Shown: positions 53,842 to 64,000 of the stretch, one piece after another
Position numbering within the stretch: the first letter of the stretch is position 1
How the letters are laid out: every line of letters begins with the position of its first letter
Origin: Sneathiella sp. P13V-1
GTDB lineage: Bacteria > Pseudomonadota > Alphaproteobacteria > Sneathiellales > Sneathiellaceae
Direction: 5' to 3'
DNA length: 64,000 nt
Assembly (NCBI RefSeq): GCF_015143595.1
Contig: NZ_WYEU01000002.1
Span: 434,001-498,000, forward strand
Notes under the pieces: model-generated
Database searches by the model: none
Told to the model about the DNA's origin: nothing
Seen by the model: only the letters and a program-made list of their open reading frames with translations
Position numbers and translations under genes: made by a program

Positions 53842-54378
53842 CTAAATTTCTTTGTATTCTCCAATTTGATGCATGTCCTCTTCGTTCATGCATTGAAAGG
53901 TTTTTGTCGGTGTAAAGTTACTTGCATCAGGTAAAGGTGGGTCATTTGGGAAGTCAGAATTAGTGATGCACACGAAGATTCGAAGCCTCTTTGACGTATT
54001 GGTGTTTTCTATGAAGGCATATTTGGTTGAGTAGGAAAAATTGTGGCTTGTGGGTAAGGTAATGATGTAGCGGTTTGCTTCGGGCCAAAGTGAATACGTA
54101 CTATTTTTTGAACAGGCCTGACCTGCAACAATGACGGTTTCAATGGTTTTTTTAATATCTAGATTCGCCTCATCCGTTTCTTTGCGGATATGGTGAATAA
54201 CCTCATCCTGATTGAGTAGTAAAAATTTTGCTAATTTAGAAATTTCGTTGGATTGTATGCGCCTGCGGCCGTTTATGATTTCGCTGACACGAGATGGAGG
54301 AAGTGAAAGTGCTTTGCCTAAGTCGCTTTTCCGGCGATTTATTTTTTTCAACCTCTCTTCTATCCAGTCGCGTCTCAT
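53842..54378 (-). CDS. Phage-type XRE repressor with degenerate S24-like domain
   Basis: The N-terminus is a helix-turn-helix of the kind found in S24 phage repressors (SLPPSRVSEIINGRRRIQ). The C-terminal half begins like an S24 domain (VIVAGQAC...LWPEANRY) but the expected Ser-Met-x site after the FA-type strand is replaced by ENTNTSKRLRIFVC, and no Lys partner is evident, so RecA-driven self-cleavage is unlikely. ATG 54378 has GGAGG nine bases upstream and is chosen over GTG 54408; 178 aa. It is divergent from the 174-aa gene and probably controls it. Confidence 0.82.
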   Translation of the reverse strand: MRRDWIEERLKKINRRKSDLGKALSLPPSRVSEIINGRRRIQSNEISKLAKFLLLNQDEVIHHIRKETDEANLDIKKTIETVIVAGQACSKNSTYSLWPEANRYIITLPTSHNFSYSTKYAFIENTNTSKRLRIFVCITNSDFPNDPPLPDASNFTPTKTFQCMNEEDMHQIGEYKEI

Positions 54379-54414
54379 GTACAAAATCCTCCCATTTTCG
54401 ATAATCACATTAAA

Positions 54415-54670: not shown

Positions 54671-55195
54671 ATGAATAGTAAAAATACCGCAGAAAAATCG
54701 AGAAGTATAAAGGCGATAATTAAGACCGCTCCGGCGGGGAATGATAATTTCCCTTATGAGATGCTCCAGAAAAGGTTAAGGGAGCAGGAGGAAAATTCCA
54801 GAACAACTAGGAAAAAGCCTAGAAACAATTCGCAAATTTGGACGAACTTGAGCGAAGCGCAAGTAAAGGCAGCGCATCGAATATATTTTGGATTTGTCGC
54901 CAAGTTCAGAGGGTTGGAAGCACGTACCCAGAATTTTATTTGGATGCCGAAAGGGAATAGCAATCCCAGTGACTTTACAGAGCATCTTATAGATAAATTC
55001 ACTTTTTGGGCCAGCTATAATCATGGTACCTATTTCAGCGTAGTCGCAGCATTGGATATACTGATTTTTGGGAAAAGTTGCCGTGAAATTGATCAGGCCT
55101 TTAGCCGCAGAAAAGGGTTTGCCAAGGGCAATCTTATTACGGCTTTGGATGAATATAATAAAATTAAAATGCACCATAATGTAGAAAAAACTTGA
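54671..55195 (+). CDS. Unknown protein, candidate late-gene antiterminator/activator
   Basis: I do not recognise the 174-aa sequence by family. Residues 1-60 are basic and probably flexible (many Lys, Arg, Asn); 60-165 look helical, with AAHRIYFGF, ARTQNFIW and a C-terminal ALDILIFGKSCREIDQAF...FAKGNLITALDEY that reads like a helix-turn-helix. An AGGAG lies 11 bases before the ATG. A Q-type late regulator role is inferred only from place: its stop lies within a promoter that runs into a terminator ahead of the terminase genes. Confidence 0.7.
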   Translation: MNSKNTAEKSRSIKAIIKTAPAGNDNFPYEMLQKRLREQEENSRTTRKKPRNNSQIWTNLSEAQVKAAHRIYFGFVAKFRGLEARTQNFIWMPKGNSNPSDFTEHLIDKFTFWASYNHGTYFSVVAALDILIFGKSCREIDQAFSRRKGFAKGNLITALDEYNKIKMHHNVEKT

Positions 55196-55218
55196 CGCCA
55201 CGGGGTCAATTTGATAAT
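55192..55218 (+). promoter_or_regulatory. Candidate late promoter (pR'-like)
   Basis: TTGACG (55192-55197), a 15-bp spacer and GATAAT (55213-55218), each five of six consensus bases. It overlaps the stop of the 174-aa gene. An inverted repeat TTGAC-N8-GTCAA (55192-55209) covers the -35 box and part of the spacer, where a Q-type factor could bind. Confidence 0.6.
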
Positions 55219-55243
55219 CTGTTTTCCATAGTCGAGAAAAAGG

Positions 55244-55277
55244 GCCTGAAATTCTGAAGGAGTTTCAGGCTTTTTTT
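55244..55277 (+). terminator. Intrinsic terminator just past the late promoter (tR'-like)
   Basis: GCCTGAAA (55244-55251) and TTTCAGGC (55263-55270) form a perfect 8-bp stem followed by seven T. It would end a transcript from the promoter at 55192 after about 50 nt, ahead of both terminase genes. The following 137 bp to the small terminase are AT-rich with no other feature seen. Confidence 0.9.
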
Positions 55278-55414
55278 ATTCTCTTTATTTGAATATAAAA
55301 CAAAGACTTATTACGTGATTCTGTGGGTAGAAGTTTTGTATTCTCAGTGTTTTGAGTAATTTCTAACAATAACAGACTTTAGATAATTCCATAAAATACA
55401 ACTAAGGGTAGGAT

Positions 55415-55840
55415 ATGGCGTTTGGATTTCCAAAATACAGGCGCGGTGTGGCAGCAGTGCGCCAACTGCTTTTCGACAAGATTGAGACAAATAACGAAAC
55501 CGCTACCTTTTTTGAAGAGCTATCAAGTTCGAACATATTGCAAAAAGCAATGACTTTTCGAAGTACGGCATTTTCAAAACAGGAAGATCGAAAAATCCGC
55601 CACTTGTTGGCGGATTTTTTTTCGCGTGAAATCTTGTTAATCGCAGATGCCAAAGAACAGGAGGAGGGTGTTGAAAATAAAGAGGCTGCAGCGCGATCAA
55701 AATTGAGGATCGATGTCAGGCGATGGTTAATGGAGCAATTTGCGCCTGAGATTTATGGAAATGCCAAAGGTAATAACAGCACTGGCGGTGTGAAATCTAT
55801 CAAACCAAAAATCTATATTCCTGACAATGGACGATCTTAA
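55415..55840 (+). CDS. Probable phage terminase small subunit
   Basis: 141-aa protein before the large terminase. The stretch KLRIDVRRWLMEQFAPEIYGNAK is close to a common small-terminase-like motif (lysine-rich, ID-x-R-x-W...YG). An AAGGGTAGG site precedes the ATG. The last 14 bases overlap the large terminase start, so the pair is coupled. It should recognise packaging sites and recruit the large subunit. Confidence 0.75.
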   Translation: MAFGFPKYRRGVAAVRQLLFDKIETNNETATFFEELSSSNILQKAMTFRSTAFSKQEDRKIRHLLADFFSREILLIADAKEQEEGVENKEAAARSKLRIDVRRWLMEQFAPEIYGNAKGNNSTGGVKSIKPKIYIPDNGRS

Positions 55841-57176
55841 ACCACAACCAGGTCCGCAAGAGACCTTTTTGGCAAGTTCCGCTGATATCGGGATTTATGG
55901 CGGCGCAGCAGGAGGCGGGAAAAGCTACGCGTTACTGCTGGAGCCATTGCGCCATATTGATAACCCACTGTTTCGGGCGGTCATTTTCAGGCGTACATCA
56001 AAGCAGATCAGAAACGAAGGGGGGCTTTGGGATGCAGCCCGAAAACTATATTCACATCTGGGAGCAACAGCCAAAGAGACAGATCTGGTCTGGAGATTTC
56101 CATCCGGGGCAACAATAAGTTTCGGATCTATGGAGCATGAGAAGAACTGTTATGACTGGCAGGGAACTGAGATTGCTTTTCTGGGATTTGATGAACTTAC
56201 TCATTTTACGGAAAAACAGTTTTATTATCTGTTGAGTCGCAACCGTTCAGTTTGCGGTATCAGGCCATACGTAAGGGCCACTTGTAATCCAGATGCTGAC
56301 AGCTGGGTTGCGCGTCTGATTGATTGGTGGATTGATGACGCAACCGGCCAAATCCCGGCGTGCAACAGTGGAGCTGTCAGATGGTTTGTGAAAGAGGGAG
56401 ATGACCTGCATTGGTCCGGTAATGAACACGAACTAAAGCAGCGGTTTGAGGACCAATCTCCAAAATCCATGACATTCGTGTCCGCCTCGGTGGAAGACAA
56501 TCAGATCCTTCTTAAAAGTGATCCAGCCTATCGTGCAAATTTGGCGGCCCTAGATCGGGTGGAGCGTGAACGACTTTTGAACGGAAACTGGAGGATAAGG
56601 CCCGAAGGGGGGGAGTTTTTCAGAAGAGAATGGTTTTCCAGAGCTCCAGCACTCACGGCAGATCTTCGAGAAGTGCGAGGTTGGGATCTGGCGGCCACAT
56701 CGGAAAATGAAAGCGGTGGAGGCCGGGCTGACTGGACGGCCGGGGTCAAAATCGGCAAAGACTCCAGTGGTAGGTACTACATCCTTGATGTGAAGCGCAT
56801 GCGAGGAAGTCCCGGTCAAATTGAAGACCTTATCAAAAGGACGGCAAAAGAGGATGGCAAAGCGGTTGCCATTGTCCTGCCTCAAGATCCGGGGCAGGCG
56901 GGGAAATCACAATCTCAAAGCCTGATCAGGATGTTAGCGGGATACAGAGTAAAAGCACTGCCGGTATCGGGAAGCAAGATGGCACGGGCGCGGGCTTTTT
57001 CTGCTCAAGTTGAAGCAGGGAATGTTGGGCTTGTATCGGATGACTGGAATGAGCTTTTCCTCCGGGAATTGGAAGCCTTTCCAGGAGGGCGTCACGATGA
57101 TCAGGTGGATGCTGCCGTGGACGCGTTTAACTTTTTCCTTCGCCAAAGAGCGACAAGCAGAAAGGAAATGTATTGA
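55827..57176 (+). CDS. Phage terminase large subunit
   Basis: DNA-packaging motor: ATPase plus nuclease. Walker A is GGAAGGGKS (residues 25-33), Walker B AFLGFDE, and the C-terminal RNase H-like nuclease has GWDLAAT and HDDQVDA with the metal-binding Asp residues. 449 aa. The C-terminal half matches the Terminase_6C-type nuclease. It overlaps the small terminase upstream and the portal gene downstream (TGATG). Confidence 0.95.
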   Translation: MDDLKPQPGPQETFLASSADIGIYGGAAGGGKSYALLLEPLRHIDNPLFRAVIFRRTSKQIRNEGGLWDAARKLYSHLGATAKETDLVWRFPSGATISFGSMEHEKNCYDWQGTEIAFLGFDELTHFTEKQFYYLLSRNRSVCGIRPYVRATCNPDADSWVARLIDWWIDDATGQIPACNSGAVRWFVKEGDDLHWSGNEHELKQRFEDQSPKSMTFVSASVEDNQILLKSDPAYRANLAALDRVERERLLNGNWRIRPEGGEFFRREWFSRAPALTADLREVRGWDLAATSENESGGGRADWTAGVKIGKDSSGRYYILDVKRMRGSPGQIEDLIKRTAKEDGKAVAIVLPQDPGQAGKSQSQSLIRMLAGYRVKALPVSGSKMARARAFSAQVEAGNVGLVSDDWNELFLRELEAFPGGRHDDQVDAAVDAFNFFLRQRATSRKEMY

Positions 57177-58333
57177 TGATCGATCCATCAATAAAATCGC
57201 CCGAGTATATGGAAATGGCGGAAAAATGGATCCTGCCCAAAGCGTTGATGGGAGGGACGCAAGCGATGCTTTCCCATGGCAGTCGGTTTCTGCCCAAACA
57301 CCCGGCTGAGAATGAGCGGGTTTATGCAGAACGGTCCCGCCGGACAGTGCTCAGAAACTATTTTAGGAAAAGTGTTGATCGTATTACCGGGCATGTCTTC
57401 GCTGGGGCCGTCTCTCCAGATACGGCATTTAATATCAAGTTTCTGGAGTTTCTGACGGATATTAATTTGATGGGACAAGGGGTGACGAGCTTTGCCAGAG
57501 ATTGGTTCGTGGATGCACTGGTTTGCGGTATTTCCTATGCCTATGTGGATTTCGCAGCGGGGCGTCCATATGCGGTTCATTTGAAAGCTGACCAACTGCT
57601 ATCTATCGAATGGTCAGATGCTCAGGGGGCTCCTGATATTCAGGAAATAAGAATATTGGAAGCGACAAGAAATAGCTCCCAGGTCCACGGGCGATCAAGA
57701 GAGCGGATCAGACGCGTTGCTAAAGATGTGTGGGAGCTTTATGAGCAAGATGACAAGGGGAAATGGCAAATTATTGAAAGCGCTGAGAACCAGTTGGGTG
57801 CCGTTCCCATAGTCCCGCTTTATGCCAAGAGAACAGGCTTTATGCAGGCGGAGCCCCCGCTGGAGGATCTGGCATATCTCAATCTGGAGCATTTCCAAAT
57901 CAGGTCTGATCAACGAAACGCACTGAACGTGGCTTCTTTTCCCATTCTCGCTGCCTCCGGGTATGATCCGGAACTGGATGGCCCCATAGAAGTGGGTCCA
58001 AACAAGGTACTGACCACGTCCGATACAGACGGCAGATATTATTATGTGGAAAGTACAGGCTCTGCTCTGGAAGCAGGAGCAAGAGAGCTTAAAGAGCTTG
58101 AGCAGGTGATCCAGCAATTCGGAATGCAACTGGAAAAAGGTAGTGCGCTTGAGACTGCAACAGGGCGTTTATTAGAAGCTGGTGACAGTTATTCGCCGAT
58201 ACGAATGTTTAATTTCGAAGTGGAAGAAAGTTTGAATAACCTGATGCGATGGTTCGGAAAGTGGATAGGTCATGATCCAGAAGGTCGATTAAAGCTCCCT
58301 TTCGAGATAGCAACCAACTCCTCTGAAAACTGA
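57176..58333 (+). CDS. Phage portal protein (DUF4055 type)
   Basis: Ring protein at the capsid vertex through which DNA enters. 385 aa. The N-terminus with HPEY-like SPEYMEMAEKW, the KSVDRITGHVF segment and NLEHFQIRSDQRNALNVASFPIL match the DUF4055 portal family. ATG 57176 shares bases with the terminase stop. No protease gene lies next to it, in keeping with a P22-like head without maturation protease. A hairpin terminator follows. Confidence 0.85.
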   Translation: MIDPSIKSPEYMEMAEKWILPKALMGGTQAMLSHGSRFLPKHPAENERVYAERSRRTVLRNYFRKSVDRITGHVFAGAVSPDTAFNIKFLEFLTDINLMGQGVTSFARDWFVDALVCGISYAYVDFAAGRPYAVHLKADQLLSIEWSDAQGAPDIQEIRILEATRNSSQVHGRSRERIRRVAKDVWELYEQDDKGKWQIIESAENQLGAVPIVPLYAKRTGFMQAEPPLEDLAYLNLEHFQIRSDQRNALNVASFPILAASGYDPELDGPIEVGPNKVLTTSDTDGRYYYVESTGSALEAGARELKELEQVIQQFGMQLEKGSALETATGRLLEAGDSYSPIRMFNFEVEESLNNLMRWFGKWIGHDPEGRLKLPFEIATNSSEN

Positions 58334-58350
58334 TTTTTATTCAATATGTA

Positions 58351-58375
58351 AGCCCTCTTTTGAAGGGCTTTTTTT
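58351..58375 (+). terminator. Terminator-like hairpin after the portal gene
   Basis: AGCCCT (58351-58356) pairs with AGGGCT (58364-58369), then seven T in all. It is inside the late operon. Confidence 0.8.
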
Positions 58376-58388
58376 ATGGAGAGATGAC

Positions 58389-58916
58389 ATGGAATTTGAA
58401 CAGGAAGTTCAAAATATCCTGGAGGAAGCCTCTGGTGAGTTTCAGGAAGACAAAATGCCAAGCGGTGACCCTGTTCCAGATTTAAGGAAAGCACTGGATG
58501 AAAAAAACGAAGAAGCCAATGCACTGCGCGAAGAGAGAGATCAACTGAAGAGAATGTCAGAAATCAAGATGGGTCTTTTTGAAGCTGGCGGAAATTATTC
58601 CCTCCTTAGTCCTCATCTTGAAAAGGTGACCTCTGTTCGAAACATCGATGGGGAGGCTGTGGTTTGTGTGGTCGGCCCTGATCAAGAGCCACTACGCAAT
58701 AGAGAAGGGGGGCTTCTTACCGTTGCTGATAAAATTCAGGAAATGAGGCAAACACCGGAGATGGCAGCTGCCTTTATGAGCGCTCCCTCCAGAGGAGCCG
58801 GGGTTAAGACGACTTCATTTCGCTCGCCTCTCAAGCCGCTTAGTGCATTTGATCAAGCGGCACTTAATTCAAACATCGAAGATATCGCCCGCGGGAAAAT
58901 TGAGGTGTCCCGCTAG
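58389..58916 (+). CDS. Probable capsid scaffolding protein
   Basis: 175 aa, acidic and helical with a coiled coil at about residues 35-60 (EEANALREERDQLKRM). No family recognised with certainty. Placed between portal and coat protein, where P22-type phages keep their scaffold; size and charge fit. The C-terminal 50 residues (SFRSPLKPLSAF...) are looser and could hold the coat-binding helix. Confidence 0.6.
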   Translation: MEFEQEVQNILEEASGEFQEDKMPSGDPVPDLRKALDEKNEEANALREERDQLKRMSEIKMGLFEAGGNYSLLSPHLEKVTSVRNIDGEAVVCVVGPDQEPLRNREGGLLTVADKIQEMRQTPEMAAAFMSAPSRGAGVKTTSFRSPLKPLSAFDQAALNSNIEDIARGKIEVSR

Positions 58917-58959
58917 TCCTTATTAACACGTACCTTACCTTCAACTTTCGGAGAACAAT

Positions 58960-60084
58960 ATGACAAACGAAATTTCGGCGGTGATGCCGAAGATTCTTGC
59001 GCGTGGCCTGCTTTCATTGCGTGAACAGGCGATCATGCCGCGACTGGTAAACGGTAGTTACAGTTCTGTCGCTGCCGAGGTCGGGGATACAATTGATGTG
59101 CCTGTCCCAGTGGATATGCAGGCAGAAAATGTAACACCTTCTGAAGTCTCACCAGCATCAGCAAGCGTAACGACGGAAAAAGTTCAAATTGAACTTAACA
59201 ACTGGAAGAAGGCGAGCTTCCATCTGACCGACAAGGAAATGATGGAGATATCCTCCCAAGAAAACTTCCTGCCAATGCAAGTAAGTTCTGCGGTTCGTGC
59301 CCTTGCCAACGCTGTGAATAAGAGTATCCATGCAGAATATCGCGGGGTTTATGGGATGGTCGGCGCCCCTGGCACGACACCTTTTGCTGCAAGTTCCGCG
59401 GATGCAACAGCGGCGCGGAAACTTCTGTTGAAACAAAGAGCCCCTAAAGAAAATCGCTTTGGAGTTCTGAACTTTGATGCGGAAGCCAATGCCCTTGATC
59501 TGTCAGCATTTGCAGATGCGGACAAAGCTGGGCAAAGCGACGTCAAGATCGAAGGGGAAATCGGCCGTAAATACGGTATCAACTGGTTCAGTGACGATCA
59601 TGTGATGGAACATGTCACGGGTGCTGCGGGAACGCCGATTATTGATGCTATCGATGGCGCGACAAATAGCCTCGAAGTCTCTGGTCTGACGTCAGATCCA
59701 AATGTGGGCGATGTCTTCACTATTGAAGGTGGGGAGCAGCAATATACAGTCCTTTCCGTTGCTTCTGTGGGGGCAAACAGGTCGCTTACGGTGGCACCCA
59801 AATTGCCAACACTGACAACTGGTTTGGAACTTACTTTCGCAGGATCCCACGTGGTCAACCTTGTGTTTAACCGCGATGCGTTCGCCTTTGCAAACCGTCC
59901 GCTGTCGCAAAGTGGTATAGGGGCAGGCCTTGGTAATCAGATTATGACGATGACGGATCCTCAAACCGGGATTTCGCTCAGGTTGGAGGTAAGCCGTCAA
60001 TATAAACAGGTCGTCTGGGAATTTGATCTGCTTTGGGGCGTGAAACTGGTGCGGCCAGAATTGGCAATCCGCTTAGCCGGCTAA
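58960..60084 (+). CDS. Major capsid protein, P22 coat-like
   Basis: 374 aa. Begins MTNEISAVMPKILARGLLSLREQAIMPRLV and goes on with VGDTIDVPVPVDMQ and WKKASFHLTDKEMMEIS, the pattern of the P22 coat protein family. A small insert with VGDVFTIEGGEQQYTVLSV occupies the middle, as in P22's insertion domain. No N-terminal delta domain cut by a protease is expected. A strong ribosome site (CGGAGAA) precedes it. A hairpin terminator follows. Confidence 0.9.
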   Translation: MTNEISAVMPKILARGLLSLREQAIMPRLVNGSYSSVAAEVGDTIDVPVPVDMQAENVTPSEVSPASASVTTEKVQIELNNWKKASFHLTDKEMMEISSQENFLPMQVSSAVRALANAVNKSIHAEYRGVYGMVGAPGTTPFAASSADATAARKLLLKQRAPKENRFGVLNFDAEANALDLSAFADADKAGQSDVKIEGEIGRKYGINWFSDDHVMEHVTGAAGTPIIDAIDGATNSLEVSGLTSDPNVGDVFTIEGGEQQYTVLSVASVGANRSLTVAPKLPTLTTGLELTFAGSHVVNLVFNRDAFAFANRPLSQSGIGAGLGNQIMTMTDPQTGISLRLEVSRQYKQVVWEFDLLWGVKLVRPELAIRLAG

Positions 60085-60094
60085 AAAGAAACAC

Positions 60095-60122
60095 AGAGGG
60101 GGCTTTTGTCCCCTCTTTTTTT
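60095..60122 (+). terminator. Terminator-like hairpin after the coat gene
   Basis: AGAGGGG (60095-60101) pairs with CCCCTCT (60110-60116), with seven T to 60122. It is 11 bp past the coat stop. Confidence 0.85.
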
Positions 60123-60143
60123 GTCAAAAACAGGAAAAACAAT

Positions 60144-60614
60144 ATGAGTTTGATTGTTGAAGACGGAACTGGTGTCCCCAATGCCGAGAGTTATGTTTCG
60201 ATCAGTGATGCTGACGAACATTTTGCCGCGTTGGAAAACAGCAGCTGGACGCGTGCCTCTTCAGGTTTGAAAGAGAACGCCCTCAAAAATGCCAGCGCCT
60301 ATGCCGATCTCTATAGCTATCCGGGATATCTGTTGAATGCGCAGCAAGGCCTAAAATGGCCAAGGGCGAAAGCCTATGATCAAGATGGGCGTCGTCTTTT
60401 TGGTCTGCCGACAGCCCTTCGCGCAGCTGTTCTGGAACTTGCCGTCGAGATGATAAACAAGTCAGCAGCGGAAACTTTCAGGCGACCCATAAGAGAAAAG
60501 GTGGGCCCCCTTGAACTTGTTTATTCAAACACTCAAAAGCAGCCGAGCTTTGTGTTCCGACTGTTGATGAAAATTGGCGCGCGGCCTTATTCAATCACAA
60601 TGCAGCGGGGATAG
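60144..60614 (+). CDS. Head-tail connector (DnaT-like family)
   Basis: 156 aa from ATG 60144 (MSLIVEDGTGVPNAESYVS); the reading frame is open back to 60033 but that part overlaps the coat gene. The start, ALRKAxxY-like repeats (ALKNASAYADLYSY) and LRAAVLELAVEM match the family annotated as DnaT-like that lies between coat and tail genes in many alphaproteobacterial prophages. Its role is probably the adaptor ring on the portal. Confidence 0.8.
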   Translation: MSLIVEDGTGVPNAESYVSISDADEHFAALENSSWTRASSGLKENALKNASAYADLYSYPGYLLNAQQGLKWPRAKAYDQDGRRLFGLPTALRAAVLELAVEMINKSAAETFRRPIREKVGPLELVYSNTQKQPSFVFRLLMKIGARPYSITMQRG

Positions 60615-60615
60615 A

Positions 60616-60975
60616 ATGTATCGATTTGATATCAAGAAAATCGTTCGTCGATCTTTCGAATTGGCAGTGGGTCTGACAGAAGATGTAAATGTTGTTCAGC
60701 ATTCTGATGACAGTTATGTCCCGGGTGAGGAGAGTTTAACGAACCCCTCCAAAGTTCACGCCAAATATATGAAAGTAAAAGAGTTTGGTGGGTTCTCTAA
60801 AATCGAAGAGGGGCCGGTATTTCAAAATTCTCCTATAATTGGCTGGCTTTGGTGTGAAGAGGCTGCCCCGTTATCCGGAGACGAGCTTGAATTTGAAAAC
60901 AGTCTTCAGAGAATTGTGCAAGTGCGCAGTTTGGACCATGGGGCTGGCAGCTTTTATGAGGTGTGGACAGAATGA
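60616..60975 (+). CDS. Putative head-closure/stopper protein
   Basis: 119 aa from ATG 60616. Not recognised by sequence. Its place between the connector and the tail terminator, small size and beta-rich end (QRIVQVRSLDHGAGSFYEVWTE) suit a head-closure protein. A GCGGGG site precedes the ATG one base after the previous stop, and its own stop overlaps the next start (ATGA). Confidence 0.6.
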   Translation: MYRFDIKKIVRRSFELAVGLTEDVNVVQHSDDSYVPGEESLTNPSKVHAKYMKVKEFGGFSKIEEGPVFQNSPIIGWLWCEEAAPLSGDELEFENSLQRIVQVRSLDHGAGSFYEVWTE

Positions 60976-61361
60976 GTTACGCCAACGTCAAGCTCGCCTT
61001 TGAGAAACATATAGATGGCTTGCAGCTTGGGCTAACTGTTTATGATAGCAGTAGGCACAGGCGCACCCATAAAACATCCTTTATCCTCACTGAGTTTTAT
61101 CCTGGAAATACAAAGCAGATTTTTGTGGGGGCAGCAGAGCCGCAAGAGCGCACTGGCACTTTTGAGTTTCAAGTACGGGAAGCGAGCCGGGAGATAGAAC
61201 TACAAAAGCTGGATGAAATTCGGGAGGGGTTTCCAGTAGGGGCAATCCTGACTGAACCGGATTTAAGGGTCACGATTGGTATTGCTGAACTAGTCCGTCA
61301 GAAATCGCCCCCGTCAAATTTTCACTATCGCCTCAAAATTAACTGGCGCACTTATTTCTAA
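60972..61361 (+). CDS. Tail terminator-like protein (DUF4128 type)
   Basis: 129 aa. ILTEFYPGNTKQIFVGAAEPQERTG, LDEIREGFPVGA and the end FHYRLKINWRTYF resemble the DUF4128/tail terminator family, which caps the tail tube before head joining. ATG 60972 overlaps the previous stop by four bases. Next is the tail tube gene, 11 bp on. Confidence 0.7.
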   Translation: MSYANVKLAFEKHIDGLQLGLTVYDSSRHRRTHKTSFILTEFYPGNTKQIFVGAAEPQERTGTFEFQVREASREIELQKLDEIREGFPVGAILTEPDLRVTIGIAELVRQKSPPSNFHYRLKINWRTYF

Positions 61362-61371
61362 GGAGAGTTAA

Positions 61372-62289
61372 ATGACGTTTGCCATGCAGTCTCTTCACAA
61401 GATGTCTTTTGTTGAAGAACAGGAGTTTGGTGTGCAGCCCGATCCTGCCAATCACACCAGTTTACGACATAGTGGATGCGAACTTAGTCTGTCTCGCCAA
61501 ACCATCGAAAGTGATGAAATCAATGAGAGTCGGCAATTGTCGGGATTGATCTCTGGTGTCGGTAAAGTGGAAGGGGATGTGGATTTTGAGCTGTCTTTTG
61601 GGGCCTATGATACCTTGTTTGAAGGATTGCTGGGAGGCACATGGATAGCAGATACTTTAAAGACGGGTGCAGCATTCAAAAGCTATACATTGGAACGTGT
61701 CTTCACAGATATTGGCGAGTATCAGCAATATTCAGGATGCGTATTCAACGAAATGACCCTCAATATCCGGCCGGATAGTATTATAAGTGGGCGCTTTTCT
61801 GTATTGGGTAAGACAATGAGCCGCTCTGAGAGTTCTGCGGCTACGACTTTGACACCTGCGACCTTTGCTGCGCCGATGGATAGTTTTCAGGCGGAGATTA
61901 AGGAAGGTGGCAGCGTACTAGGTTACATTGTTGGGGTGGAACTGAAGCTAAACAATAACGCCGAAGAGCATTATGTGATCGGTGCCGATAGTGCCGAGGA
62001 TATTTCCCTTGGCAAAAACAGAATTACAGGGGAACTCAGTGCATATTTTCAAAATAGCGCTTTACTTCAAAAATTCTTAGATAAGCAAAAAAGCAGTCTT
62101 TCCATCAATTTAAAAGGTGAGGGGGGAGAGTATGAATTACACCTTCCCCATATTCAGTTTACCGGCCAAGAGATGCCCGTAAAAGGGGACAGCGCCGTTA
62201 TTCAAACCCTCCCTTTCACAGCGCTTTATGATGAAACGGAAGCAACCAGCTTAAAAATAACTAGAGCAGCAGAAGGGGCAAGCGCATGA
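61372..62289 (+). CDS. Phage tail tube protein
   Basis: 305 aa beta-rich major tail protein of the Phage_tube_2-like family, with LRHSGCELSLSRQTIESDEINESRQLSGLI and DVDFELSFGAYDTLFEGLLGGTW. A GGAGAG site precedes the ATG. The presence of a tail tube and tail terminator shows a siphovirus-type long tail rather than the podovirus tail of P22. No sheath gene lies beside it, so the tail is not contractile on present evidence. Confidence 0.88.
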   Translation: MTFAMQSLHKMSFVEEQEFGVQPDPANHTSLRHSGCELSLSRQTIESDEINESRQLSGLISGVGKVEGDVDFELSFGAYDTLFEGLLGGTWIADTLKTGAAFKSYTLERVFTDIGEYQQYSGCVFNEMTLNIRPDSIISGRFSVLGKTMSRSESSAATTLTPATFAAPMDSFQAEIKEGGSVLGYIVGVELKLNNNAEEHYVIGADSAEDISLGKNRITGELSAYFQNSALLQKFLDKQKSSLSINLKGEGGEYELHLPHIQFTGQEMPVKGDSAVIQTLPFTALYDETEATSLKITRAAEGASA

Positions 62290-62675
62290 GTGATCTTGAT
62301 TTGTGGGATCTGGACATTAGCCAAAGTGCTGAGCTGGGGGCCAAGATGGTTCTTTGTCATCCTGTTCGTAAAGAACCCTTGCCGATTGGTATTTATCTGA
62401 AAGGAAAAGATGCGCCAAGTTTCCGCAGGGTTATTCGACGCCAGATAGACTGGCAGATTTCTGAAGGCAAAGCAGATCTGTCAGCTGCAGAAATGGAACG
62501 CCATTTGGTTGAGAGGTTGGCCGCTGCAACTGTTGGCTGGGAGGGGGTTAAGTACCATGGTGAGCCTTTCCCGTTTACTGAGAGAAATGCAGAGAAACTT
62601 TATTCTGAGCAAATCTGGATACGGGAACAAGTTCAGCAATTTATCGATGAACGCGCAAATTTTCTGAAAGACTGA
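62286..62675 (+). CDS. Tail assembly chaperone, short form (gpG-like)
   Basis: 129 aa acidic protein between tail tube and tape measure genes, the position of lambda G. It includes SFRRVIRRQIDW and an acidic C-terminal helix (EQIWIREQVQQFIDE). Overlaps the tube gene by four bases. Its last codons hold an A_AAT_TTT slippery site. It should coat the tape measure during tail assembly. Confidence 0.75.
   Translation: MSDLDLWDLDISQSAELGAKMVLCHPVRKEPLPIGIYLKGKDAPSFRRVIRRQIDWQISEGKADLSAAEMERHLVERLAAATVGWEGVKYHGEPFPFTERNAEKLYSEQIWIREQVQQFIDERANFLKD
62657..62663 (+). promoter_or_regulatory. -1 frameshift slippery heptamer A_AAT_TTT
   Basis: The bases AAATTTT read A-AAT-TTT in the chaperone frame and fit the rule X_XXY_YYZ exactly. 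The -1 frame is open from 62651 (after a TGA at 62648) to 63019, so a slip here gives a long fusion. No stimulatory stem was verified. Confidence 0.7.
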
Positions 62676-63019
62676 TCCAAAGATTTTTGGTCTGGGCGAA
62701 GAATGAACTTCGTCAACTGATTACATCTTCGGGTCAGTCAATTTCAATAGATGCCGCAACCAGACAGTTGCGCCGTCAGGGCATTAAAATTGAACCACAC
62801 GGCTTTCAGGTGGGGACTTGCCCCGATGCACTTCTTCATGTGTGGGAAATGTTTGGAAGTTTGCTGAATGTATGCCGTCCGGGGGAAATGCTTTCGCCAA
62901 TTATCATTGCTGAGAATTTGCGCTGCCTTGCAGAGGTATCTCCCCAAAGGTGGGAGGTTAGGCTGGTGTTCAAGCTGTTCCTGATGTTGCGAGACTTACA
63001 GGATCAAACGAAATTTTAG
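62663..63019 (+). CDS. Tail assembly chaperone extension (gpT-like, reached by -1 frameshift)
   Basis: The frame has no ATG before residue 60 and only a TTG at 62687 without a ribosome site, so separate translation is unlikely. After the slip it would read SERLIQRFLVWAKNEL and continue for 118 codons, giving a 244-aa fusion to the 129-aa short form, a ratio like lambda G (140) and GT (279). The sequence has helical LLHVWEMFGSLLNVC and basic stretches. Function by analogy: the T part binds tube subunits. Confidence 0.65.
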   Translation, partial: SERLIQRFLVWAKNELRQLITSSGQSISIDAATRQLRRQGIKIEPHGFQVGTCPDALLHVWEMFGSLLNVCRPGEMLSPIIIAENLRCLAEVSPQRWEVRLVFKLFLMLRDLQDQTKF

Positions 63020-63020
63020 A

Positions 63021-63040
63021 AGCGGCCAAAAGCCGCTTTT
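63021..63040 (+). terminator. Terminator-like hairpin before the tape measure gene
   Basis: AGCGGC (63021-63026) pairs with GCCGCT (63032-63037), followed by four T, C and two T. The T-run is short, so it may be weak. Confidence 0.6.
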
Positions 63041-63054
63041 CTTATGAGGTGACA

Positions 63055-63684
63055 ATGGCTGATTATCTTGCTTCTGATTTAAAAAGCGTGTCGAGTGATC
63101 TGGATGTACTGTTTAAGAAAACTCAACAATTGAACAGGGAGTTTTCTAAGAACAGCGCTGCAGCATATGTGTCTGGATTATCCAGTGAATTCAACAAGTT
63201 GAGTTCTGTTGTTCGCTCTGGCTTTGAAAAGTCATTGGGAAGTATCTTCGATGTGTTTCTGACCAAGGGGGGGGATGCCAAGGATCTTGTGAAAGCCCTT
63301 GAAAATGACCTTCTGAAACTTGGTAATCAGTATTTTGGTGGAGAGACTTCGAAGAGGTCGTTGGGTCGCGGTATCGCCGCTGTTGGTGGTGATTTACTAA
63401 GTAATCTGCTGCCGGGTTTTGCAACTGGCGGATCATTTACTGTTGGTGGTGTGGCTGGGCATGATCGAAATCTGGTGGGACTTAGACTAAGCCGAGGGGA
63501 GCGAGTGGATATCTCAACCCCCGCTCAGCAGAGACAAGAAAAGCAAGCCTCCTCACAATCTCAGGTGATTAATCTGAATTACAACATTCAAGCTTCGGAC
63601 GCAGCGAGCTTTAGGCGATCTCAATCTCAAATCCAAACCGAAGCCCTTCGAAATGCGCAGCGACTTTTAAAACGAAACGGGTAA
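63055..63684 (+). CDS. Very short tape measure protein (GTA-like)
   Basis: 209 aa from ATG 63055 (GAGG five bases upstream; a GTG two codons earlier is also in frame). Helical N-terminus (LKKTQQLNREFSK), then the Gly-rich FATGGSFTVGGVAGHDRNLVGLRLSRGERVDI found near the end of gene-transfer-agent and small siphovirus tape measure proteins, and a basic C-terminus. Most tape measures are three to six times longer. It directly precedes the DUF2460 gene, as in gene-transfer-agent clusters. Confidence 0.8.
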   Translation: MADYLASDLKSVSSDLDVLFKKTQQLNREFSKNSAAAYVSGLSSEFNKLSSVVRSGFEKSLGSIFDVFLTKGGDAKDLVKALENDLLKLGNQYFGGETSKRSLGRGIAAVGGDLLSNLLPGFATGGSFTVGGVAGHDRNLVGLRLSRGERVDISTPAQQRQEKQASSQSQVINLNYNIQASDAASFRRSQSQIQTEALRNAQRLLKRNG

Positions 63685-63688
63685 AAGA

Positions 63689-64000
63689 ATGACTTTTCAC
63701 AATGTCCGATTTCCAACCAAAATCTCTTATGGAGCGACGGGAGGTCCGCGATTTTCCACTACAGTACAATTGATGAATTCCGGTCACGAACAGCGGAACA
63801 TCAATTGGGTGGATGCCAGACGGGAATATGAATTTGATGTGACACCAGCACGCGAAGAAAGCTGGCGCGCATTACTGGCATTTTTCCATGCAAGACGTGG
63901 GCGCGCTTACGGATTTCGTCTCAAAGATTTTGCAGATTTTAAATTGGCGGAAGAGCCTATTGGTACAGGCGATGGTGTAGCAACAAGTTTTCAGATCACC
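63689..64000 (+). CDS. Distal tail DUF2460 protein, cut by window end
   Basis: 104 codons are visible from ATG 63689 with no stop. MTFHNVRFPTKISYG, INWVDARREYEFDV and FHARRGRAYGFRLKDFADF are hallmarks of DUF2460 (TIGR02217), the distal tail ring of gene transfer agents and related phages. The complete protein is about 200 aa, so about half is missing. DUF2163, NlpC/P60 and hub genes are expected next. Confidence 0.9.
   Translation, partial: MTFHNVRFPTKISYGATGGPRFSTTVQLMNSGHEQRNINWVDARREYEFDVTPAREESWRALLAFFHARRGRAYGFRLKDFADFKLAEEPIGTGDGVATSFQIT

Follow-up and report, generated by a model that had tools for sequence, protein, structure and literature searches.

The window analysed here, a stretch of 64,000 nucleotides (positions 434,001 to 498,000) on contig 2 of the 3.7-Mb genome of the alphaproteobacterium Sneathiella sp. 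P13V-1, carries a gene for a 174-aa protein that is followed by a promoter, an intrinsic terminator and a set of terminase, head and tail genes. This arrangement raises the question of whether the protein allows RNA polymerase to read through the terminator, in the manner of the Q protein of phage lambda, and what kind of element would be switched on in this way. A preliminary description of the sequence had proposed a Q-pR'-tR'-like module in which the 174-aa protein occupies the position of Q. Strong comparative support for this proposal comes from a layout held in 21 of 21 loci, a covarying terminator stem, a promoter geometry shared with lambda and the occurrence of homologues at the Q position of prophages. 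The retention of promoter, pause element and terminator beside the gene across the genus constitutes the strongest evidence. We estimate at about 0.8 the probability that the protein is a processive antiterminator, which loads at the promoter overlapped by the end of its own gene and switches on a late operon resembling that of a gene transfer agent (GTA).

Evidence for a remote relationship between the 174-aa protein and GafZ

The candidate antiterminator gene (54671-55195, forward strand) occupies a Q-like position and is open throughout its 174 codons. Its TGA stop codon (55193-55195) lies within the -35 hexamer TTGACG (55192-55197), so that the gene does run into the promoter as previously described. 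No Pfam, NCBIfam or PHROG family could be assigned to the protein, all matches being at the level of noise, and a sequence-profile search of the PDB returned nothing. None of the 21 family members matches the Pfam, NCBIfam or PHROG profiles of the lambda, 21 and 82 Q families, in agreement with the earlier view that this is not a known Q. The protein can, however, no longer be considered one of unknown affiliation, as both profile (hhalign) and fold (Foldseek) comparisons point to the DUF6456 family, to which GafZ belongs.

When 25 domain-trimmed members of the 174-aa family were aligned by hhalign with 26 DUF6456 domains, the match had a probability of 90.7 and a score of 45.4 over 113 columns in order, against maximum scores of 15.4 over 100 column shuffles and 16.3 over 15 unrelated families encoded at the same loci. 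An initial comparison of 21 and 8 sequences had given a non-significant probability of 1.2, and a more diverse set one of 19.8; the gain thus came with depth and trimming, while the controls on the final alignments stayed flat. In single sequences of the family DUF6456 falls below the Pfam threshold and is not seen by hmmscan, and no DUF6456 gene was detected in any of the 25 Sneathiella genomes with a Caulobacter control genome scoring positive. The AlphaFold model of the protein has a mean pLDDT of 74.8, rising above 90 in the C-terminal third, where helices 124-131, 137-143 and 150-164 form a predicted helix-turn-helix (HTH, approximately residues 124-164; pLDDT of the block >90). This HTH resembles sigma region 4, with a weak match to the -35-binding domain of SigC (TMt 0.75). 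Among viral models, Foldseek retrieved DUF6456 proteins at probabilities of 0.96 and 0.85 with weak E-values (0.14-0.15), and the fold evidence is therefore to be read jointly with the profile evidence; against the PDB there was no significant match, phage 21 Q (21Q) appearing only as a weak one. The alignments and the model together suggest that the 174-aa family is a remote relative of DUF6456/GafZ, within a related superfamily and outside the Pfam family proper.

Distribution of the protein and its neighbouring regulator

Homologues of the 174-aa protein are encoded in 22 of the 25 Sneathiella genomes and in none of the 118 genomes from outside the genus in the same whole-genome search, while five further, divergent homologues, all outside the genus, emerged from a profile search that covered 289 genomes of the class. 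The homologous proteins share only 27-50% identity with that of the window, and several start codons in the protein alignments are guesses. No close relatives were found in IMG/VR, the GTDB contigs or the GenBank phages, and searches of phages with two divergent family members likewise gave no matches. Among IMG/VR and genome contigs with a related terminase, a homologue was found in the examined flanks of just three, two of them Sneathiella loci and the third a viral contig whose terminase is 60% identical.

Upstream, and in the opposite orientation, lies a gene for an XRE/CI-type HTH regulator (53842-54408, reverse strand; HTH_3, E=1.1e-5), comprising 188 aa from a GTG or approximately 178 aa from an internal ATG start codon. 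In one clade (G003, G016, G018, G020, G022, G023 and others) no such regulator was detected, and control of the 174-aa gene must consequently differ there.

Two lambda-like Sneathiella prophages (L041 and L134) encode divergent homologues of 261 and 158 aa at the position of lambda Q, preceded by the repressor, Cro-like and replication genes and followed by the late genes. Each has a promoter-like TTGAC site 3' of it, although the fixed CAnnnT layout described below is not obvious there. The promoter layout was not found 3' of the homologous genes outside the genus (G183, G184 and G117). In two other genera, genes of the 174-aa family are paired with a divergent HTH gene (L135, 7042-8735; L136, 8372-10048, reverse-complement), with no phage structural genes nearby, which is reminiscent of the unlinked gafYZ genes of Caulobacter.

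A conserved promoter with a spacer element and a putative pause element

The -35 element TTGACG is separated by 17 nt from the -10 element TAATCT (55215-55220, forward strand), and a further 6 nt precede CATAGT (55227-55232), the probable start site and a -10-like, putatively sigma-dependent pause element at +1 to +6, the numbering being set by lambda geometry. Directly 3' of the gene, the layout TTGAN-N17/18-TAnnnT-N6-CAnnnT, followed by a terminator, recurs in all 21 homologous Sneathiella loci with a readable 3' flank. The -35 is TTGAC in 20 of these and TTGAA in one, and the spacer is 17 nt long in all but two loci, where it is 18 nt. The promoter had previously been drawn as TTGACG-N15-GATAAT; its existence and its -35 stand, but the -10 is reassigned to TAATCT, since the register TTGACN-N17(18)-TAnnnT is invariant across the 21 loci. 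The CAnnnT element, absent from the preliminary description, is likewise found in 21 of 21 loci at N6 after the -10, which is the offset of AACGAT in lambda. Lambda pR' (NC_001416, L042) reads TTGACT-N17-TAAATT-N6-AACGAT and its spacing, including the +1 to +6 element, is identical to that in Sneathiella.

An inverted repeat over the -35 had also been put forward as the binding element of the protein. The repeat TTGAC...GTCAA (55192-55196 and 55205-55209) is present in the window, but was rejected as it is not conserved across the homologous loci. Conserved instead, with small variations and at about -25 to -20, is GGG(G/A)(T/A)C, represented in the window by CGGGGTC (55201-55207, forward strand; GGG at about -25 to -23). 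Its location between the -35 and -10 makes it a candidate binding element, and a possible loading site akin to the QBE, ABE and ZBE. In one clade a AACACYTAANGATAGAA-like motif occurs about 20 nt upstream of the -35 (L035, 5424 and 5655; also L036, L029 and L034), and in some genomes it is repeated just before terS, past the terminator.

A general promoter scan of the region showed no excess (13 matches against 13.8 expected), and consensus matching alone is thus insufficient to support a switch. The combined pattern TTGAC-n-GGGG-n-TAnnnT-N6-CAnnnT has one match in the window against 0.00 expected, and the near-identical pattern TTGAC-CGGGGTC-TAnnnT-CAnnnT has a single match in the whole 3.7-Mb genome. 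In the relatives, a looser pattern mostly recovers just the module's own site, with a few scattered extras in line with a reversed-pattern control. A chance promoter was rejected on the rarity of the pattern in window and genome and the confinement of flank conservation to the module.

The terminator and the predicted short RNA

The intrinsic, tR'-like terminator (55244-55277, forward strand) consists of the 8-bp core stem GCCTGAAA/TTTCAGGC (55244-55251 and 55263-55270) and seven T (55271-55277), as had been noted, and its position before the terminase genes would give a default RNA whose predicted length of approximately 50 nt agrees with that proposed earlier. The RNA from +1 to +51 folds at -22.4 kcal/mol (z = -4.9), and none of 200 shuffled sequences folded equally well. 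In an alignment of 20 loci, the sequences of stem and loop vary freely with preservation of pairing, and at 12 of the 14 pairs of the stem one or more genomes show compensatory changes. The homologue in G019 (L009) is an exception, with a weak hairpin of -6 kcal/mol.

The sigma-4-like HTH would also suit a DNA-binding activator (RinA/ArpU- or sigma-region-4-like) that leaves read-through unaffected, the terminator then merely ending a transcript from upstream, and the homologue of GafYZ in R. capsulatus, GafA, whose matches are annotated as DUF6456, has been characterised chiefly as an activator that contacts the omega subunit (PMC9638019). The near-consensus promoter is, however, always located upstream of the terminator, so that activation alone would produce more of the 50-nt RNA. 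An activator would also leave the invariant -10-like element at +1 to +6 unaccounted for, and no conserved promoter by which the terminator could be bypassed was found between it and terS in the homologous loci, as conservation collapses 3' of the terminator. We consider an activator of this kind improbable.

Even less weight can be given to the possibility that the short RNA is itself functional, either as an sRNA or as a leader attenuator that responds to a signal different from the 174-aa protein. The predicted RNA of about 50 nt does retain a conserved 5' stretch and a hairpin in 21 of 21 loci, yet it is the pairing rather than the sequence of stem and loop that is kept, the best-conserved sequences are the promoter and the pause element, and the module always accompanies the 174-aa gene.

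The downstream genes form a vertically inherited, GTA-like cluster

The genes downstream of the terminator, all on the forward strand, begin with an Sf6-like small terminase (55415-55840), the large terminase (55827-57176), a DUF4055 portal protein (57173-58333), a head scaffolding protein (58389-58916) and a major head protein of the P22 coat type (58960-60084). These are followed by a DnaT_2-like protein, probably a head-tail connector (60033-60614, the true start probably lying downstream of 60033), two small head-tail or tail genes (60574-61361, comprising 60574-60975 and the tail-terminator-like 60963-61361) and the tail tube protein (61372-62289). Two small genes without a Pfam match (62286-63019; 62286-62675 and 62687-63019) separate the latter from a very short tape measure protein of 211 aa (63049-63684), after which RcGTA-like tail genes come next in the genome. 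The first of these, a DUF2460 tail protein (63689-64000), continues past the window to approximately 64297 and starts an RcGTA-type tail module of DUF2460, Gp84-like hub, NlpC/P60 and Rcc01698-like proteins. The cluster spans about 15 kb and ends at approximately 69665, where it is succeeded by a 108-aa gene and host RND efflux genes.

In most genomes the cluster adjoins cysK, and the interval from cysK to the RND efflux genes showed neither integrase nor replication genes. The trees of the cluster and of the host are congruent (Mantel r 0.94; five of eight splits in common), dS is of similar magnitude in cluster and host genes, and dN/dS of the cluster genes is 0.04-0.14. The coat gene is single-copy and present in 20 of the 25 genomes, three of the five genomes without it being very incomplete assemblies. 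By these measures of sequence divergence, the cluster is vertically inherited and under purifying selection, a genus-wide feature that had not been recognised in the preliminary description. Together with the site beside cysK and the lack of an integrase, the combination of a P22-like head with an RcGTA-like tail suggests a domesticated, GTA-like element rather than an ordinary prophage.

The structural genes have been lost in two genomes. In G006 (L027, 4065-5414), the HTH gene, the 174-aa homologue and the promoter-terminator are kept, whereas no structural gene remains and on its left side the locus does not adjoin cysK; the module may there have another target or be decaying. In G001 (L032), the genes from the portal to the tail tip are missing and the regulator module and terminase remain, an apparent decay of the cluster. 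Such losses and the phage-type character of all genes would suit the late region of an ordinary prophage in which promoter and terminator came together by chance or are in decay, with neither a special switch nor domestication, but the common site, congruent trees, host-like dS, low dN/dS, single-copy coat gene and retention of the module in 21 of 21 loci make this highly unlikely.

A model for the switch and its relation to known systems

If the 174-aa protein is an antiterminator, RNA polymerase would start at about 55227 and pause early through renewed binding of sigma region 2 to the -10-like CATAGT at +1 to +6. Without the protein, polymerase would stop at 55271-55277 and release the RNA of about 50 nt. 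Once the divergent repressor or a host signal permits expression of the 174-aa gene, the C-terminal HTH of the protein would bind GGG(G/A)(T/A)C between the -35 and -10, and the protein would then attach to the paused polymerase, enabling it to pass the terminator and transcribe the 15-kb terminase-head-tail operon. This operon would constitute a vertically inherited, GTA-like phage remnant of Sneathiella, from which particles might be produced.

One close parallel is GafZ of the Caulobacter crescentus GTA, an experimentally supported antiterminator with an element between the -35 and -10 (PMC11150451). The remote relation in sequence and fold to GafZ and to the C-terminal part of Rhodobacter GafA extends over the whole conserved domain, and GafZ controls a GTA-type cluster, as the Sneathiella protein probably does. 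In contrast to gafZ, the Sneathiella gene is located in cis, directly before its own promoter, and in a non-systematic look no linked GafY or IHF layout was noticed. The Sneathiella terminator lies at about +45, whereas that of the GafZ system follows the first gene, and the element GGG(G/A)(T/A)C differs from the GCGCCCG-CTGGCGC palindrome of GafZ.

With lambda, the module shares a gene at the Q position that ends just before the late promoter, identical -35, -10 and pause spacing and a promoter-proximal terminator, while the Sneathiella protein has no sequence similarity to the Q families. Lambda tR' is situated at about +194, and the Sneathiella terminator is thus much closer to the start. 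In lambdoid phages Q loads at a sigma-dependent pause, which is brought about by a -10-like sequence within the initial transcribed region (PMC6606751). Phage 21 Q and AlpA, an antiterminator of P. aeruginosa, are both HTH proteins; each loads between the -35 and -10 during a sigma-dependent pause, and a terminator lies downstream. The layout in Sneathiella is the same, with loading probably similar. The AlpA element (ABE), GGGACG at -25 to -20, occupies the same place as GGG(G/A)(T/A)C (PMC9371919). Neither protein has a detectable sequence relation to that of Sneathiella, the fold match to phage 21 Q being weak and non-significant.

Judged from its genes, the cluster resembles the RcGTA-type GTAs in its DUF2460, Gp84-like hub, NlpC/P60 and Rcc01698-like tail module, its short tape measure and its vertical inheritance. 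It differs from RcGTA in its P22-type coat, DUF4055 portal and Sf6-type small terminase, with no HK97-type portal and capsid.

Implications for GTA regulation and origins

If the 174-aa protein acts as proposed, one more family would be added to the unrelated proteins that function as Q-type antiterminators, and the little-understood GafZ class would be tied to the loading layout of lambda. The system is compact, with gene, promoter, pause element and terminator contained in about 600 bp, and would be suited to the reconstitution of GafZ-type antitermination. The genes under its putative control (54671-64000 of the window, module included, and on to approximately 69665; L002) have the appearance of a phage domesticated throughout the genus. 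A published survey that included two genomes of the order, Sneathiellales, detected no RcGTA-like cluster in them (PMC6821227), and the Sneathiella cluster is a candidate GTA of a kind not represented in that survey. More tentatively, and at somewhat below even odds, Sneathiella may possess a GTA of independent origin, with a P22-type head and an RcGTA-type tail, that is switched by a cis-encoded distant sister of GafZ, and GafZ-type proteins may generally load in the manner of lambda Q, through a spacer element and a sigma-dependent pause at a -10-like element. The Sneathiella cluster makes the question of whether GTAs have independent origins directly testable.
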